From the NCBI GenBank assembly GCA_947172415.1, contig OX359195.1, positions 4,687,501 to 4,751,500 on the forward strand: a DNA stretch of 64,000 bases, read 5' to 3'. Of this stretch, positions 34,526-41,700 are shown in pieces; within the stretch, counting starts at the first letter, position 1, and each line of letters opens with the position of its first letter. The notes beneath the pieces are model-generated. The model was not told the origin of the DNA. It ran no database searches and saw nothing but the letters and a program-made list of their open reading frames with translations. The DNA comes from Chondrosia reniformis (lineage: Eukaryota; Porifera; Demospongiae; Chondrillida; Chondrillidae). The translations under genes were made by a program, and so were the position numbers.

Positions 34526-34909
34526 ATACAAGTAAATAAAAAACATTTACAAAAATGATGTTAGAAGTAGGAATGGTAGTGTTCACTAATACATCTGCAA
34601 AAAGTATCGAAACAAGACACTGATTATATGATAAGGCTAATCATACAGAAGTTGCATATATACTGAAATTTAAGTAAATTAACCATACACTTCTGTGTTT
34701 GGGCGCACTAACCTTAAATAGGAATGGTGCGCCCAAACACAGAAGTGTATGGTTAATTTACTTAAATTTCAGTATATATGCAACTTCTGTATGATTAGCC
34801 TTATCATATAATCAGTGTCTTGTTTCGATACTTTTTGCAGATGTATTAGTGAACACTACCATTCCTACTTCTAACATCATTTTTGTAAATGTTTTTTATT
34901 TACTTGTAT
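34526..34909. repeat. Perfect foldback: 183-bp arms, 18-bp spacer
   Basis: Left arm 34526-34708 starts atacaagtaaataaaaaaca and ends tgtttgggcgcac. Right arm 34727-34909 is its exact reverse complement. The whole is about 384 bp. No mismatch was seen along the arms, implying very recent formation, active homogenisation or an assembly fold-over. No ORF. Confidence 0.9.
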
Positions 34910-35436
34910 TCCCCCTTTTTTCCTCTTAATATTACTAGTTTTAAATTAATTTGAAAGTTTTCTTGGCGAAGATCTCAAAATAACGTCTTAGACAAGAGAA
35001 ATATGCCGAAAACCATGATCTCTTAATTAAAAAATGGCGTCCGAGAAGACCACAATTTTCGCTCTTCACAATTAACATGCTTATTGTAGAGCGCATTCAG
35101 ATTTAGGGCTGTCTATTCCCTAGTTCCGAAATATTTATGACGATTTATAACTAGTACGTGCCCGCACAAGTTCGCATATTAGCGCTAGTCTATTCAATAA
35201 AAGAAGAAGAAGAAGAAAAAATGAATTTTGGAAGTGGGTCTATTCCTAGTTAGCCGCTTTTTGAACGCTATAGAGCGTGTAGAGCGTCGAAACATGTTTT
35301 GGCATTTAGGAAAGCGTGCATTAATCGCTGCAAATAACCGAATATAACCGAAAATCGCTTCGTTGGCGATTTATGAGGTGTTGATTGCTAATACATTGGA
35401 TAGGGCGGCCATTTTTTTTTCCGGCCATTCCTACTT
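34910..35436. other. Spacer between foldback and 5.9-kb element
   Basis: AT-rich, with a short agaagaagaag run near 35203 and a T-run near 35412. Not matched to the DIRS gene; no coding sequence seen. Confidence 0.35.
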
Positions 35437-35912
35437 AGAGAGTACTAGAGTAAGTGATTGAAATTCGGACACCAGGTTAAATCGGACACTTGTACAACTG
35501 CCTCTAAAGCCTAAACGAGGTTTCTTGTGCATGATCTCATACCCCGTGGTCCTGCTAATTTGCCGACCAACTTTGGTACGCTGAGCTTTAGCAACACGGG
35601 AGCAAAGCACCATTAACGACGATGTCCGGATATAGGGAACATCGGACATATTAACTAAGCGTCGGACAAAAGCGATTTTATTCTACTTAAGACTCACAAA
35701 TTGCTCTCCTTACACTTAAAACTTATTCGAGAGCTTTACAAAGGTTTTGGAAACCAATTTAACGCCACGTGGGCGGTTAAGGTTGACTAGATGACGTCAT
35801 TAAAATGGAGGGCGAAAATTGTCGATTAGGTTTCTAAGCTGAAAATTACCCTTTGACCTGTACATGTACCGAAGTTTCTTCGAGCATTTACTACGCATGC
35901 GCAAAAGATTTG
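35437..35912 (+). repeat. Left long TIR with clustered TCGGAC motifs
   Basis: Carries five spaced motifs (attcggacac, atcggacact, tgtccggata, catcggacat, cgtcggacaa) between 35463 and 35670, likely subterminal transposase-binding sites. A 72-codon frame (starting MSDVPYIRTSS on minus) is present here and, mirrored, in the right TIR. Its coding status is doubtful. Confidence 0.75.
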
Positions 35913-35954
35913 CATGCCTCCCTTGCGGTTTTTAAAGTTTTTCATATGAAGATT

Positions 35955-36410
35955 TTCTGCTTGGTAGGTTAGTCCCAATTTTCTCACACTGCCTCTAATC
36001 ATTTTGTTTAAATTGTCTAACTGTAGATCCTAAAGGCTGTTTGTTGCTGTTTGTCACAAGTTAAGTCAGAGGTGTCTTTACTTGGTAGGTTAAAAAATTA
36101 GTCCTATAATTTGTTCTTCACGCTGCCTCTAATCATTTTGTTTAAATTGTCTAAATGTAGATCCTAAAGGCTGTTTGTTGCTGTTTGTCACAAGTTAAGT
36201 CAGAGGTGTCTTTACTTGGTAGGTTAAAAGATTAGTCCTATAATTTGTTCTTCACACTGCCTCTAATCATTTTGTTTAATATATCTAAATGTAGATCCTA
36301 TAAAGACTGTTTGTTGCTGTTTGTCACAAGTTCAAATTTGAGTCAGAGGTTTCGTTTGCTTGGTAGGTTAAAAAAGTTAGTCCTAATTGGTTCTTAACAC
36401 TGCCTCTAAT
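35955..36410 (+). repeat. Tandem repeat, units of about 121-145 bp
   Basis: cttggtaggtta recurs at 35960, 36081, 36215 and 36360. The units share ctgcctctaatcattttgtt and gctgtttgtcacaagtt. It adjoins the left TIR of the 5.9-kb element. Confidence 0.88.
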
Positions 36411-36461
36411 CACTAAACTTCACAACCCTTTTGTTCAAGCATAGAAAGATTTTATATATAC

Positions 36462-36742
36462 AGTGAATCCTCGATTATCCAGATCACAAAATTACCTTGC
36501 ACGTGACACGTGGATCACACAATTATGATACCAACATATGCAAATGTGACACGTTTCAGTCGCGCTAATGTTTTTTACTCGATCAAGGATGGCGGAGTCT
36601 ACTAGTACTGCGAAGCCTAAGTGAAAGAGAACAAATAAGAAATCGTTCTACTGTTCTACATATTTGATTGTATTTCACTTATCCGAACAAAATTTTTGTG
36701 CCATTTGACCAATGGGGTTCGGATAACCGAGGATTCACTGTA
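36462..36742. mobile_element. pogo/Tigger-like MITE with TA duplication
   Basis: Ends cagtgaatcctcgattatcc and ggataaccgaggattcactg are inverted repeats flanked by TA on both sides. The CAGTG...CCTCG-type terminus with a TA target is characteristic of pogo/Tigger elements. About 281 bp, non-coding, nested in the 5.9-kb element 550 bp upstream of its transposase. Confidence 0.85.
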
Positions 36743-37290
36743 GGTTAATTCACAGCTCTTGATTGAAGGATAAAAAGAATTTTTATTTTATGCATGCACT
36801 GCAACCTCAAATTAAGCTTCACAATCAGTCTTTACATATTTGCATTGTGGGAAAACTAGCTGCCTGATATATTATATATATTGCTAATTGTTGATCAGCT
36901 AGGGTCAAGAAACATCCATAAATATATATCAATGAAATCACCTTTTTAGTATAATTTCATAGTATAATGCTTCTAAACACAATTTATTCCAAAAAAAAGT
37001 AATAAATATGCATAGAACTCATTCTGTGAAAATTAAGTCCCTTGAAATTAAGGAAGTACATGATATTACTATGACTACAAAGCATGCATAAATGTCATAT
37101 GGTTGTGACAACAGAAACACAGGTGTTAAGGTTAATTCCCAGTCTGCGATTATCTTATTAATTTTACCAATATTCCATGCAGTGCATGCACTATCTGGTC
37201 ATCCCTATATTATACTAATCATTGATAATTAAAACTCTGCCAAGGACTACTGCATGCACTTTCATTTTTTGTTAAACATTTGTTTTTTAG

Positions 37291-38586
37291 ATGTTACCTC
37301 TTAGCCAAAGAGTGCTGTATTCCAATTCAGCATGTGAAGTAGAGCATAAGCCTCTAAATGTGTTGCCATCTAGGCAAGGACGTTATAAAGCATGGGATTC
37401 CGAAAAGCTAGAAAGAGCAGTTAAGGCTGTTTGTTGCGATGGAGCCACTATACGACAAGCTGCCGAAGCTTATGGTATCCCCAAGAGTACGCTTGGAGAC
37501 CGAATTAGTGGAAAGATACTTGGTGGTGGTACAAATTCAAGGTACCTAACTGATGATGAAGAACAGGAACTTGTGTCCTTTATCATTGGTTGTGCCACTA
37601 TTGGGTATGCAAAGACGGTGAAGGAGATTCTTGCGGTAGTTCAGCGGATTCTGGCAGCTCGAGGAACTTATCGTCCTATTTCTTATGGTTGGTGGGAAGC
37701 CTTCAAAAAGAGGCACCCTAATCTCTCCCTTAGGATCCCTGCTTCCTTATCAAAACCAAGGGCAATGGCCTCAAACAGGGCTGTATTAGATCATTATTTT
37801 GATCTTTTAGAAGAAACATTAGTAGAAAATAATCTGAAAGACAGTCCTTGCCAAATCTATAACATGGATGAAAGCGGTATGCCTCTTGCGCCTAAGCCTT
37901 TAAAGACGATTCATGAAAAAGGAACAAAAAACGCATTTGCCATGACATCTTCAATGAAGACCCAAATTACCATTGTAGCATGCGTAAACGCTGCAGGGCA
38001 ATGTTTGCCCCCCATGGTGATTTGGGATCGGAAGCAACTGAGACCTGAACTAACAATAGGAGAAGTACCTGGAACCATATATGGTCTTTCAGGGAAAGGT
38101 TGGATGGACCAACATCTCTTTGAGAAGTGGTTCAAGAGGCATTTTTTGCGTTATGCACCACCTGTAAGGCCATTACTCATCTTACTTGATGGCCATACCT
38201 CTCATTATTCCCCCGAGGCCATTACAATGGCCGCTGAGGAGCAGGTGCTGTTATTTGTCCTGCCTCCAAATACTACCCACTTGAGCCAACCATTGGATAA
38301 GGGGATATTTGGTCCATTAAAGATGGCTTGGAGGAAGGTATGTCATGACTACATGGCCAGTAACCCTGGACAAATTATTCATCGCTACATATTCTCAAAG
38401 TTGTTCAACAAATCCTGGACTGAGGCTATGACTATTCGGAATATAGTGTCAGGCTTTCGTACAACTGGAGTGTATCCAGTAAACAGAGATGCCATTAGTT
38501 TGCCTGGAGTACCAGAAACAAGGCTTTCGCTGTCTGAGAGGACACGCCTTTCATTTATTCCACTCTATACTCCGTCTAAGCCCTGA
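37291..38586 (+). CDS. pogo/Tigger-type DDE transposase (431 aa)
   Basis: Cuts and joins transposon ends. An N-terminal psq-type HTH (residues about 34-75: AVCCDGATIRQAAEAYGIPK then STLGDRI) is followed by a CENP-B-like region (YLTDDEEQELVSFI; GWWEAFKKRHPNLSLRIP), then the DDE_1 nuclease: D193 in IYNMDESG, D300 in LLDGHTSH and D336 in LSQPLDKGIFGPLK, a DD35D triad. The frame is uninterrupted. The ATG follows directly on a ttttttag acceptor, so an upstream exon is possible. It ends YTPSKP-stop. Right after, in the +2 frame, LRQKKGGTG (38583-38607) leads to a GTAAGG donor and resembles the ends of the downstream linker exons. One extra base in the C-run at 38581-38583 would fuse the two. Confidence 0.9.
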   Translation: MLPLSQRVLYSNSACEVEHKPLNVLPSRQGRYKAWDSEKLERAVKAVCCDGATIRQAAEAYGIPKSTLGDRISGKILGGGTNSRYLTDDEEQELVSFIIGCATIGYAKTVKEILAVVQRILAARGTYRPISYGWWEAFKKRHPNLSLRIPASLSKPRAMASNRAVLDHYFDLLEETLVENNLKDSPCQIYNMDESGMPLAPKPLKTIHEKGTKNAFAMTSSMKTQITIVACVNAAGQCLPPMVIWDRKQLRPELTIGEVPGTIYGLSGKGWMDQHLFEKWFKRHFLRYAPPVRPLLILLDGHTSHYSPEAITMAAEEQVLLFVLPPNTTHLSQPLDKGIFGPLKMAWRKVCHDYMASNPGQIIHRYIFSKLFNKSWTEAMTIRNIVSGFRTTGVYPVNRDAISLPGVPETRLSLSERTRLSFIPLYTPSKP

Positions 38587-40492
38587 GGCAGAAGAAAGGT
38601 GGCACTGGTAAGGAAAAATCTATTAGATGCATGCATTGTGTAGATTGTGCATGCATATAGCTTAAGTATGATATTCCTGTTCCATTTTATATACACAGAT
38701 GTTGCAATTGGAATTACTAATGTGAAAAAGGAAGCATCCAGCCCATGTGATGAAGTGGAAATCAAATCAAGAGGTAAACAACGCCTGAAACAGAAGACTG
38801 GTGACATTGGTAAGGAATACTGGGATGTAATATATATAACTTGCTTATATATATGGAAATCCTTTCATTGTTACCTTTGCAGATGGTCGAGTAACTGAAG
38901 TGAGAAATGAGACATCCATCTCTCTCCCGAGCTCAAATAAATTGAAAGCGAAGTCTGGAAGTAAACAAGACCTGAAACAGATGAGTGGTAAGGAAAATTT
39001 GCACGGTGCTTAATGGCTTGCATGCTTGAATGGAAAAGCATTCCTGTTTTATGCATGCAGATGTTGGAGTGACTGATCTGAGAAAGAAAGTGTCCATCTC
39101 ACCCACCAACCCAAGTGGCGATGTGAAGGTCAAATCAAGTAAGCAGAGCCTGAAACAAGAGAATGGTGTGACTAGCTATAGGAAAAGGCTGCATGGTGCA
39201 TGTTAACTATACATGTGCATGTACATATATATCTATAGTATGTCTTTGTAACTCCTTTTTGTAGTTACTACAGAATCTGATGTTGGCCTGATGGGTGTGA
39301 CAAAGAAAAAGGCTCCTTCCACCACCCTTAGGGGTGGGCGAAATATCTCCACCAGAGGTGTCCTAAAACAGAAGAATGGTGTTGCCGGTAAGGAGAAAAC
39401 CTGCTTGCATATATATAAAGCATACAAAGCTTTTGTTTATATAATTGGATCGTGATCAAGTGATCAGTTCTTGGATGTATATATATACAATTTAGGTTTA
39501 GTGAGTTTTGTATAAAATGACCAGTTTCTGATAAATAATATAGATGTTGACCAGGAGGGTGAACTATATAAGGCTACAGCAATCGAGGTTTCATCTGAAA
39601 CTGATGAATCTGAATATACATCAGCAACATGGTGGCAAAAGGATTTAGATTTGACATCACAGGAGCGAGAAATACTGCTTTCTGGGAAAGAATTAAATGA
39701 TCGTATCATTAATGCAGGACAGAAGCTGTTGAAAAATCAGTTCAATCATATTCATGGGTTCCAAAGCACTCTTTTAGGATATCGGCTGAAATTTGAGCCA
39801 ATATCAGTAAAGTTTGACAGTGTTCAGATATTTCATACAGGTATATTATTGACTGTATATATGTGACATTGTGTATACTCATGCATGCAGTCCTGCATTT
39901 TGTGTTATATATATTTTATATAGGAAGTACAAATCACTGGATTTGCATCTCAACAGTTGGTAGTAGAGGAATGATCCATGTTATGGACAGTCTAGGAACT
40001 TCTCTGCCCCTGAACAGAAAGACAGTTTTGCAAATTTGCAAAGCCTATTCTGTTGCTCCATCAAGTTCTCTGAAGGTCAAAAAGCTCTCAGTTCAGCAAC
40101 AACAAGGTGCAGTGGACTGTGGGGTGTACTGCATGGTATATGCAACCGAAACCTGCCTTGGAAATGATGTCACAAGTGTTGCTTTTGATCAAAAGAGAGC
40201 ACGTAAACATTTGTTCCAGTGTTTTCAAGATGGCAAAATGAGTGCATTTCCTAGAAGCTCCAGAACTGTGCAGCGAACTGTTAGCAAAATACAGAGTTTC
40301 AAACTCTACTGTGTATGCAGAATGCCTGCAGACTACGATACTGAAATGGTACAATGCAGTGGATGTTGTAAACGCTGGTATCACTTTTCATGTGTGGGTG
40401 TGAAGTATCCAGTCCCTGAGATGTGGAAGTGCTCAAAATGCTTAACAGGAGATGATATTGTTTCTTTCTGCAAGCCTGCTGAATTTTTATGA
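38583..40492 (+). CDS. Linker repeats, Ulp1/SENP-like cysteine protease and PHD finger
   Basis: Exons 38583-38607 (partial), 38699-38809, 38883-38987, 39061-39165, 39265-39387, 39544-39840, 39924-40492. All junctions are phase 1 and the frame stays open to TGA. Four linker exons are related (start DV-G-T-V-K, end LKQ-x2-G). The last two exons encode a Ulp1 (C48) fold: LDLTSQEREILLSGKELNDR at the N-terminal side, His in NHWICIS, Asp in HVMDSLG, Gln and Cys in QQQGAVDCGVYC, so the whole catalytic set is present. A C4HC3 PHD finger follows (YCVC, VQCSGCCKRWYHFSC, WKCSKC). Ulp1 enzymes cleave SUMO or SUMO-like tags; PHD fingers often read histone H3 tails. No start codon of its own is evident, so it is probably the 3' part of the transposase gene. 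Confidence 0.82.
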
Positions 40493-40862
40493 CTTAACCT
40501 TTCAATAGTAGACTGTTTTTGCTTAGCTATAACAAACAGAAGCTATTATGTAAACTTATACTTTCTTACTTAATTTTGGACTTTGACAGTGGCCAAAATT
40601 GCTTTTTAGTAATTGTGAGTGCCGCCAGCACTGCGATTTTTACTGGCGGCGCTCACAATTGTGTGTCTGCAAAGATTGAAAATGTTTAGCTATATTCCTT
40701 TCCTATCAGTGCAAAATAAGCATGAATTAAATTATTCACAGTCCAAACTGGATAGAAATGCAGTGTATTATATATCAACTGTAGTTTTTTCCTCTCTAGC
40801 AAAATAACTTATATATATACATGACTGTTGCGAAACCTAAAACTGCTATTATAATCTTTTGG

Positions 40863-41332
40863 AAATCTTTTGCGCATGCGTAGTAAATGCTCGAAGAAAC
40901 TTCGGTACAGGTCAAAGGGTAATTTTCAGCTTAGAAACCTAATCGACAATTTTTGCCCTCCATTTTAATGACGTCATCAGTCAACCTTAACCGCCCACGT
41001 GGCGTTAAATTGGTTTCCAAAACCTTTGTAAAGCTCTCGAATAAGTTTTAAGTGTAAGGAGAGCAATTTGTGAGTCTTAAGTAGAATAAAATCGCTTTTG
41101 TCCGACGCTTAGTTAATATGTCCGATGTTCCCTATATCCGGACATCGTCGTTAATGGTGCTTTGCTCCCGTGTTGCTAAAGCTCAGCGTACCAAAGTTGG
41201 TCGGCAAATTAGCAGGACCACGGGGTATGAGATCATGCACAAGAAACCTCGTTTAGGCTTTAGAAGCAGTTGTACAAGTGTCCGATTTAACCTGGTGTCC
41301 GAATTTCAATCACTTACTCTACCGTACTCTCT
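40863..41332 (-). repeat. Right long TIR
   Basis: Inverse of 35437-35912, with the same spaced gtccga motifs (gtccgacgc, gtccgatgtt, ccggacatcg, gtccgattta, gtccgaattt). Between 40493 and 40863 is the 3' UTR region of the protease gene, with a small hairpin (gtgagtgccgccag / ctggcggcgctcac, 40615-40652). Confidence 0.78.
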
Positions 41333-41335
41333 GAT

Positions 41336-41700
41336 ATGTGGTATCACCTCCACCATGGAACATACCCTCTCGTGTCCCACTGCATGGTGGAGCTACCACA
41401 AGTCAACACAATGAGGTTCGTAACCTAATGGCCGATCTCCTTAGAGATGAGAGGGTACACTCAACCCAGTTGACCCTTCAAACCAGACACCACAGATGAC
41501 CACTTGCTACCGACGCGCCACGAGTGTAAGAAGAGATGTAAGTACAAGCGATCTATGAGTTTGAGAAGTTGAACATGCTTCCTTTGTCCCATGCACTGGT
41601 GATGTCCTGTATTGGAGGAGCGGGCCCCTGTATATAACTGTGTTCCTCATAAGGCATGCAGCACTGTTGACTGAGAGGCACAACTCCGGATCCAACTATA
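41336..41700 (+). pseudogene. DIRS-like gene, 3' segment beyond the insertions
   Basis: Reads ICGITSTMEHTLSCPTAWWS at once after the right TIR, matching the C-x-H-TLSCP-x-GG block that follows the RT in DIRS-like proteins. After slips come EVRNLMADLLRDERVHSTQL and PLSHALVMSCIGGAGP-like text. It picks up where the copy at 32980-34505 stops, so both belong to one ancestral gene. Confidence 0.6.

Follow-up and report, generated by a model that had tools for sequence, protein, structure and literature searches.

The window analysed here, a stretch of 64,000 nucleotides on chromosome 7 of the demosponge Chondrosia reniformis (C7:4687501–4751500), harbours a pogo-type DNA transposon of 5,872 bp (window positions 35448–41319), in which a DD35D transposase is followed first by a cysteine protease domain resembling Ulp1/C48 and then by a PHD finger. 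The element has defined boundaries, a duplicated TA target and further copies in the genome, its order of domains recurs in diverged loci, and the catalytic residues of the protease are retained. The reading that we favour, with reasonable but not high confidence, is that of a TA-inserting pogo transposon with long terminal inverted repeats (TIRs), whose single spliced gene would encode transposase, Ulp1 and PHD with a role at chromatin. The pogo lineage carrying Ulp1–PHD is, to our knowledge, new; Ulp1 together with PHD was already known from Ginger1 elements of Hydra.

Element, target site and copies in the genome

An earlier note on this stretch had placed the transposase and the Ulp1–PHD part between TIRs of about 470 bp and had set the limits of the element at 35437–41332. 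The inverted-repeat search bore out the long TIRs: including the TA, the arms run from 35446 to 35914 and from 40860 to 41321, with a length of ~465 bp and near-perfect complementarity (blocks of 343 nt at 100%, 74 nt at 99% and 53 nt at 96%). The limits had to be moved inwards, as the outer ends of both arms read TAGAGTAAG, in which the TA is the target duplication. Hence, the element proper comprises 35448–41319, with a left TIR of ~467 bp on the forward strand (35448–35914, containing two subterminal TCGGACAC motifs) and a right TIR of ~460 bp on the reverse strand (40860–41319). The two TA duplicates lie at 35446–35447 and 41320–41321, as placed by the ends of the family copies (TA-GAGTAAG) and the joined-flank matches described below; the additional ~10 bp per side in the earlier span belong to a palindromic target.

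The 150-bp window flanks on either side of the element were joined with one TA and searched against the genome (15 contigs, 117,379,552 bases; its contigs or chromosomes are denoted C1, C5, C8, etc.), yielding 41 matches. Forty of them run from position 1 to positions 165–171 at 99–100% identity, past the junction at position 150; 37 have the same length as the joined query and 3 are shorter by one base. The remaining match covers positions 5–109 at 84%. The junction-spanning matches represent a host repeat in copies that lack the insertion, which indicates that the TA was duplicated by the insertion. With 40 of 1,458 candidates scored, the copy count of this repeat is a lower bound. The host repeat around the element (window ~35298–35447 and 41322–41337) has at least 40 other copies at 99–100% identity, and the insertion target is a near-palindrome centred on TA.

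Whole or partial TIRs were found at eight loci, namely on C7 (the window), C8, C11, C9, C12, C1 and C5 and as a fragment on C2, and seven of the eight contain both transposase and Ulp1–PHD matches. Copies with these TIRs and both coding parts, for which the earlier note had proposed to search, therefore exist; the converse outcome it had named, TIR copies devoid of the transposase, does not apply at these seven, the eighth being the C2 fragment. The C8 copy (6.35 kb) is 99.2% and 99.6% identical to the window copy in two blocks and sits in unrelated flanking sequence, which, together with the six further TIR loci, agrees with the claim that the arrangement is not due to chance. All copies share the outer ends TAGAGTAAGTGATTGAAATTCGGACACC with at most one difference (right end of C5), and their flanks are unrelated, C2 aside; that fragment comprises only window 40074–40855 plus parts of the TIRs, and only its left end was seen, with a few letters different. 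The match of the C5 copy ends at window 40172, short of the PHD finger. The copies on C1, C9, C11 and C12 have in common an inverted block (window 38019–38282) and the loss of 38283–39206, which gives them the appearance of a non-autonomous subfamily, probably mobilised in trans. The family was mobile recently.

Gene layout and its recurrence at diverged loci

The transposase frame (exon 1, 37291–38586; all exons are on the forward strand) starts at 37291 and encodes 431 residues up to a stop introduced by a deletion. Pfam searches assigned DDE_1 (E-value 6.6e-25, residues 224–389), HTH_psq (2.2e-8, above the cut-off, residues 38–75) and HTH_Tnp_Tc5 (0.012, below the cut-off, residues 88–148). 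The catalytic triad consists of D193, D300 and D336, the last two separated by 35 residues, so that the DD35D transposase with a psq helix-turn-helix (HTH) proposed earlier was recovered. A DDE_1 domain with a DDxD triad and an HTH of the psq, Tc5 or CENP-B kind are features of the pogo superfamily, as are TIRs with a TA target duplication, and the element possesses them all. The Ginger1 features H2C2 and rve were not reported by Pfam for any of the three window proteins.

Relative to the C8 copy, 481 bp are absent at 38581–38582, which removes the transposase tail, intron 1 and most of exon 2, with a remnant of the latter at 38582–38607. Thereafter, four short repeat exons with edges placed by eye follow at 38699–38809, 38883–38987, 39061–39165 (exon 5, with a weaker GTGTGA donor) and 39265–39387. 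Exon 7 (39544–39840), which is open in the window copy, contributes the N-terminal Ulp1-like half; exon 8 (39924–40492) encodes the Ulp1-like His, Asp, Gln and Cys, followed by the PHD finger and a stop. In the C8 copy, eight exons separated by seven GT–AG introns, all in phase 1, join into a chain of 1,013 codons, interrupted once by a nonsense codon in the protease part of exon 7. As the C8 exon edges were picked by eye to hold the frame, the common phase is partly by construction; a further exon 5' of the first ATG is possible. The five short exons span 105–123 nt and are mutually similar. The C8 transposase continues into a Lys-rich tail, which by eye resembles the C-termini of transposase-only relatives (L042–L044; L-numbers denote loci of transposase or Ulp1–PHD matches in this genome), and this likeness identifies the shorter window transposase as the result of the deletion. 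The location of the transposase and the protease–PHD part on the same strand was thus confirmed but not their status as separate genes: they look like one spliced gene, and an element with a single fused gene is, judging from the sequence, highly probable.

The earlier note had also announced a complete Ulp1 catalytic set. Peptidase_C48 was matched on the spliced exons 7 and 8 (39544–39840 plus 39924–40492) with an E-value of 5.1e-5, above the cut-off, and all four residues were located within the C48 domain, with codons starting at 39935 (His), 39986 (Asp) and 40118 (Cys) and a QQQQ stretch at 40094–40103. The catalytic Gln is most likely the codon at 40100, six before the Cys, based on the Gln-to-Cys spacing of Ulp1. 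These residues are kept in the alignments, and an active Ulp1-type protease is likely for the mobile ancestor of the element. The downstream PHD finger (~40307–40441), likewise anticipated as one of the C4HC3 kind, scored 2.6e-6 in the window protein and 5.1e-6 on spliced exons 7 and 8. Its closest Protein Data Bank (PDB) matches are PHF2, EBS, PHF8 and BPTF, which we take to be readers of H3K4 methylation; whether the finger itself would read this mark is an even call.

Genome searches yielded 103 stretches matching the transposase (97 of 348 candidates scored), 94 matching Ulp1–PHD and 150 matching DDE_1 (150 of 319 candidates scored), which were merged into 79 Ulp1–PHD and 184 transposase loci for counting pairs. 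Fifteen of the 79 are preceded, at a distance of at most 8 kb and on the same strand, by a match to the transposase or to DDE_1. The other arrangements amount to eight pairings (four upstream on the other strand, two downstream on the other strand and two downstream on the same strand), and three of the four upstream opposite-strand cases correspond to the inverted block inside family copies. Random placement predicted 0.51 upstream same-strand pairings (maximum 5 in 2,000 draws) and local shifts of 10–60 kb predicted 1.2 (maximum 6). Seven of the 15 paired loci belong to the family of the window; of the other eight, two with the parts 5–7 kb apart are less certain, and one, L064 on C13, has a more distant transposase. 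Chance juxtaposition of transposase and Ulp1–PHD was rejected in view of the copies, the diverged loci and this pairing count.

The same gene order was thus found beyond the family, as the earlier note had suggested checking, in one case within long TIRs of its own. This second element, L063 (C1:3720300), has TIRs of 388 nt that are 98% complementary and end in TAGAGTAAG; it is 40–47% identical to the family in the transposase, whose frame is broken, and 39% in Ulp1–PHD. The distant locus L065 (C6) consists of a single 692-residue frame matching DDE_1 (2.5e-14), Peptidase_C48 (9.9e-5) and PHD (1.5e-4, with 22.2 bits below the Pfam cut-off of 24); an HTH was not found in this frame, which is preceded by a stop. 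A second locus, on C12, matches L065 residues 2–461 at 79%, has stops and ends before the protease core. The His, Asp, Gln and Cys are kept at the loci where the region aligns, with 31–42% identity to the window, except in L025, which is frame-shifted there, and L027, which is frame-shifted at His and Asp. The N-terminal Ulp1 half was found in L062, L035, L064, L065, L068 and L069. At the site of the intron that precedes the catalytic His in the window, the two halves of L035 are separated by a gap of about the same size, those of L062 lie ~1 kb apart with an AG at the site, and L067 and L046 also have the AG, while L064, L065, L068 and L069 read straight through.

Relatives lacking the cassette are also present. 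L042, L043 and L044 are elements of ~3.4 kb with TIRs of 389–390 nt and transposases of 585–587 residues; their ends also carry a TTCGGAC-type subterminal motif, and no Ulp1–PHD match was found in them by the genome search. In a tree of 27 transposases, all from this genome and several of them broken, the cassette-bearing psq lineages fall outside the L042–L044 group; with backbone supports of 53–57, the tree does not decide between gain and loss of the cassette. Eleven transposase loci, picked by eye, have a PHD match 0.3–0.75 kb downstream, among them L055, L056 and L058; in L055 and L056, a pogo transposase and a PHD-like finger share one 663-residue frame without a Ulp1 match. A derivation of the window finger from the older finger of such transposase–PHD elements is disfavoured by the scores, which are 55–73 against three of these fingers versus 103–104 against two Ginger1-type PHDs. 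No relatives of the transposase were found in prokaryote or viral contigs. Of note, L034 (C7:3168510) contains an 894-residue transposase frame in which a tail segment is duplicated.

The Ulp1–PHD pair also occurs behind a different class of transposase. Over the 4–4.5 kb examined at each locus, L068 has an rve match (1e-6, below the cut-off) and L069 has Integrase_H2C2 (1.4e-13) and rve (2.1e-4, below the cut-off) matches upstream of Ulp1–PHD; Peptidase_C48 was matched in L068 (1.6e-4) but not reported for L069, where the protease part was recognised by alignment. The L068 integrase was used as a genome query, and 27 of 45 rows, with E-values up to 1e-7, gave 19 Ginger1-like loci. As a raw count, 10 of the 19 are followed within 6 kb by a Ulp1–PHD match in the same orientation (at 4.8 kb in one case), and none of the 19 has such a match on the opposite strand. 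In a tree of 11 Ulp1–PHD sequences, the psq-pogo modules are split from those of the Ginger1-like loci, L064/L066 and L065 with a support of 95.8/96, and the L065 module stands beside that of L068 (74.6/69). Taken together, the module tree, the intron-site pattern and the PHD scores suggest that the two domains of the pair move together, and sequence comparison suggests that it is common to pogo and Ginger1-like elements and was probably passed between transposon classes. The distinct lineage proposed in the earlier note was consequently retained as a pogo lineage with Ulp1–PHD, but the pair is not unique to it, being related to the Ginger1-like pair.

Proposed mechanism, alternatives and known systems

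According to the favoured fusion reading, the exons would be spliced to encode one protein, in which the transposase with its Lys-rich tail is followed by the products of the short repeat exons, the Ulp1/C48-like cysteine protease and the PHD finger. By analogy with established families, the transposase part would cut and paste the element, and the fusion protein might bind the TTCGGAC-type subterminal motifs. The PHD finger, judging from its relatives, could tether the complex to methylated H3 tails and so favour open chromatin. The protease may then act at the donor or target, stripping chromatin or repair proteins of SUMO or of a different ubiquitin-like modifier, which would oppose SUMO-dependent silencing or ease repair. 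In animals as well as in plants and yeast, SUMO promotes the silent state of chromatin (PMC8131101), so that a protease brought into chromatin could counter silencing; PMC2836005 suggests a repair role for such proteases in Ginger elements. SUMO as the substrate, with an anti-silencing or repair role, is a serious possibility that we put slightly short of even.

Several results weigh against this reading. The complete fusion is not intact in any copy seen: the window copy has the deletion, C8 the nonsense codon, and the others deletions and stops. The Peptidase_C48 match is partial (positions 90–203 of 217), and a genome scan with the C48 family reported three places, which include L064 but not the window. 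Upon comparison of exon 8 with the PDB, all 52 matches fell within the PHD part and none on the protease, and the structure prediction for this exon was too poor for use, with a predicted local distance difference test (pLDDT) value of 36. The ratios of nonsynonymous to synonymous substitution (dN/dS) within the family do not point to selection acting on the protease: exon 8 yields 0 for the window versus C8 (two changes) and 0.61, 1.27, 1.27 and 3.3 versus L025, L027, L029 and L030, respectively, with few substitutions except for L025, while exon 7 yields 0.26–0.81 and the transposase 0.30–0.70. A sequence search found no match for the N-terminal Ulp1 half in L063, L067 and L046. The PHD ligands are mostly kept, with L035, L066 and L069 each lacking one. 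Finally, no TIRs were found in the 3 kb examined around L065, which is therefore only putatively mobile.

Among the alternatives, two products arising by intron retention or from a separate promoter, i.e. a stand-alone transposase and a Ulp1–PHD accessory protein acting in trans, are rather unlikely. In their favour, the C8 transposase frame reads 13 codons into intron 1 before a stop, which would give 555 residues if the intron were kept; the two parts of the window copy can no longer be joined; and L064 has separate frames of 417 (transposase) and 383 residues (Ulp1–PHD) ~1.6 kb apart. In contrast, the exon chain of C8 is open in one phase save for its nonsense codon, and L065 holds DDE_1, Ulp1 and PHD within one frame. 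That a host Ulp1–PHD gene was overrun by, or once captured in, the transposon and is functionless there, or is a chance neighbour, is very improbable. PHD and C48 domains do occur in host proteins too, the gene is broken in the window copy, and the dN/dS values of the family are uninformative to neutral, but diverged loci repeat the order, as do loci with a transposase of another class, and the catalytic residues are retained there. Moreover, the lone conserved host gene that the earlier note had named as contrary evidence was not encountered among the five loci opened that lack a psq-pogo transposase (L064, L065, L066, L068 and L069): Ginger1-like integrases precede L068 and L069, and a DDE_1 transposase is fused to L065 and situated near L064. 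This check covered these five, of which L066 was extracted too short to judge its neighbours, and most weak Ulp1–PHD loci fall outside it.

As to the substrate, the protease might instead target ubiquitin or another ubiquitin-like protein, or mature the element's own protein; we regard this as unlikely, though less so than two products. Weak matches to other families of this broad type, RickCE_cat in the window (0.0028) and YopJ acetyltransferase in the Ginger-type L068 (6.2e-6), point in this direction, as does the presence of either OTU or Ulp1 in Ginger1 elements (PMC2836005), an alternation that suggests interchangeable roles. Against this, no protease family in Pfam fits the window better than Peptidase_C48. 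More broadly, Ulp1–PHD might be an accessory module found on psq-pogo elements with a shared intron, on the intronless DDE_1 frame and on Ginger1-like integrases, either a traded or a converged tool that would read histone tails and strip SUMO to reach open targets and resist silencing; we advance this view tentatively.

The closest known system is Ginger1 of Hydra (e.g. Ginger1-9_HM), likewise a DNA transposon between TIRs, in which Ulp1 and PHD lie on the C-terminal side of the transposase (PMC2836005); Ulp1–PHD from two of the Ginger1-like loci identified here is 31–32% identical to that of the window. PMC2836005 describes a Gypsy-integrase-type transposase, in contrast to the pogo-type HTH_psq/DDE_1/DD35D enzyme of the window, and, where stated, TIRs of 44–120 bp for Ulp1-bearing families, compared with ~465 bp. 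By domain signature, the window element resembles Fot/Fot-like members of the pogo superfamily (HTH_psq plus HTH_Tnp_Tc5, DDE_1, DD35D, TA duplication and TIRs; PMC7386202). Elements of this superfamily span 1.2–5.2 kb and have one or two transposase open reading frames with DNA-binding and DDE domains (PMC7386202), whereas the window element carries the additional Ulp1 and PHD and, at 5.9 kb (6.35 kb in C8), exceeds that size, which is a described range and not a criterion. The assertion that pogo elements normally have short TIRs needs qualifying, as some pogo elements of insects have TIRs (type 4) of 392–856 bp; these very long TIRs are like those of the window element, and the insect elements are unclassified, with no extra domains mentioned in the section of PMC7386202 that describes them.

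Other transposons resemble the window element in part. CryptonF and CryptonS of oomycetes carry a C48 (Ulp1-family) peptidase but are tyrosine-recombinase elements with no PHD mentioned in the available parts of PMC3212892, the authors of which suggest domain shuffling between two Crypton groups. Mutator elements of plants, hydra and lancelet also bear Ulp1 but belong to another transposase superfamily (PMC2836005). By analogy only, the PHD finger of RAG2 can link a transposase-like recombinase to chromatin bearing trimethylated H3K4 (H3K4me3; PMC8355894), although RAG2 is a separate protein and has no protease. Within the literature searched, which does not include Repbase or most subscription journals, we know of no description of a pogo element with Ulp1 or PHD, and pogo, Ulp1, transposon and PHD came together in the Ginger paper alone (PMC2836005). 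The words "protease" and "PHD" are absent from the main text of PMC7325037, and "protease" from that of PMC7386202.

If true, a transposase with its own protease and chromatin reader would be a compact natural system for studying the effects of SUMO removal and histone reading on transposition or target choice. Related Ulp1–PHD modules in pogo and Ginger1-like elements of one genome make module exchange between transposon superfamilies testable, and the sponge host places a Ulp1–PHD-bearing pogo in an early-branching animal.

Other repeats in and around the element

Inside the element and 5' of the gene, the repeat search detected a tandem repeat of 134 bp in ~3 copies (35984–36412, forward strand). 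It is followed by a nested miniature inverted-repeat transposable element (MITE) on the forward strand (36461–36740), which is TA-flanked and has ends CAGTGAATCCTCG and CGAGGATTCACTG that we take to be Tigger-like. The window and C8 copies contain the MITE, but the alignments for the copies on C11, C9, C12, C1 and C5 pass over it; further full-length genome matches have 72–79% identity. Five short stretches on C3, C11 and C1 match only TIR positions 226–310 at 94–95% and are perhaps another element with the same TIR part. To the left of the element, window 34526–34909 contains an inverted repeat whose 183-nt arms match perfectly across a spacer of 18 nt and which is probably a separate hairpin-type repeat.

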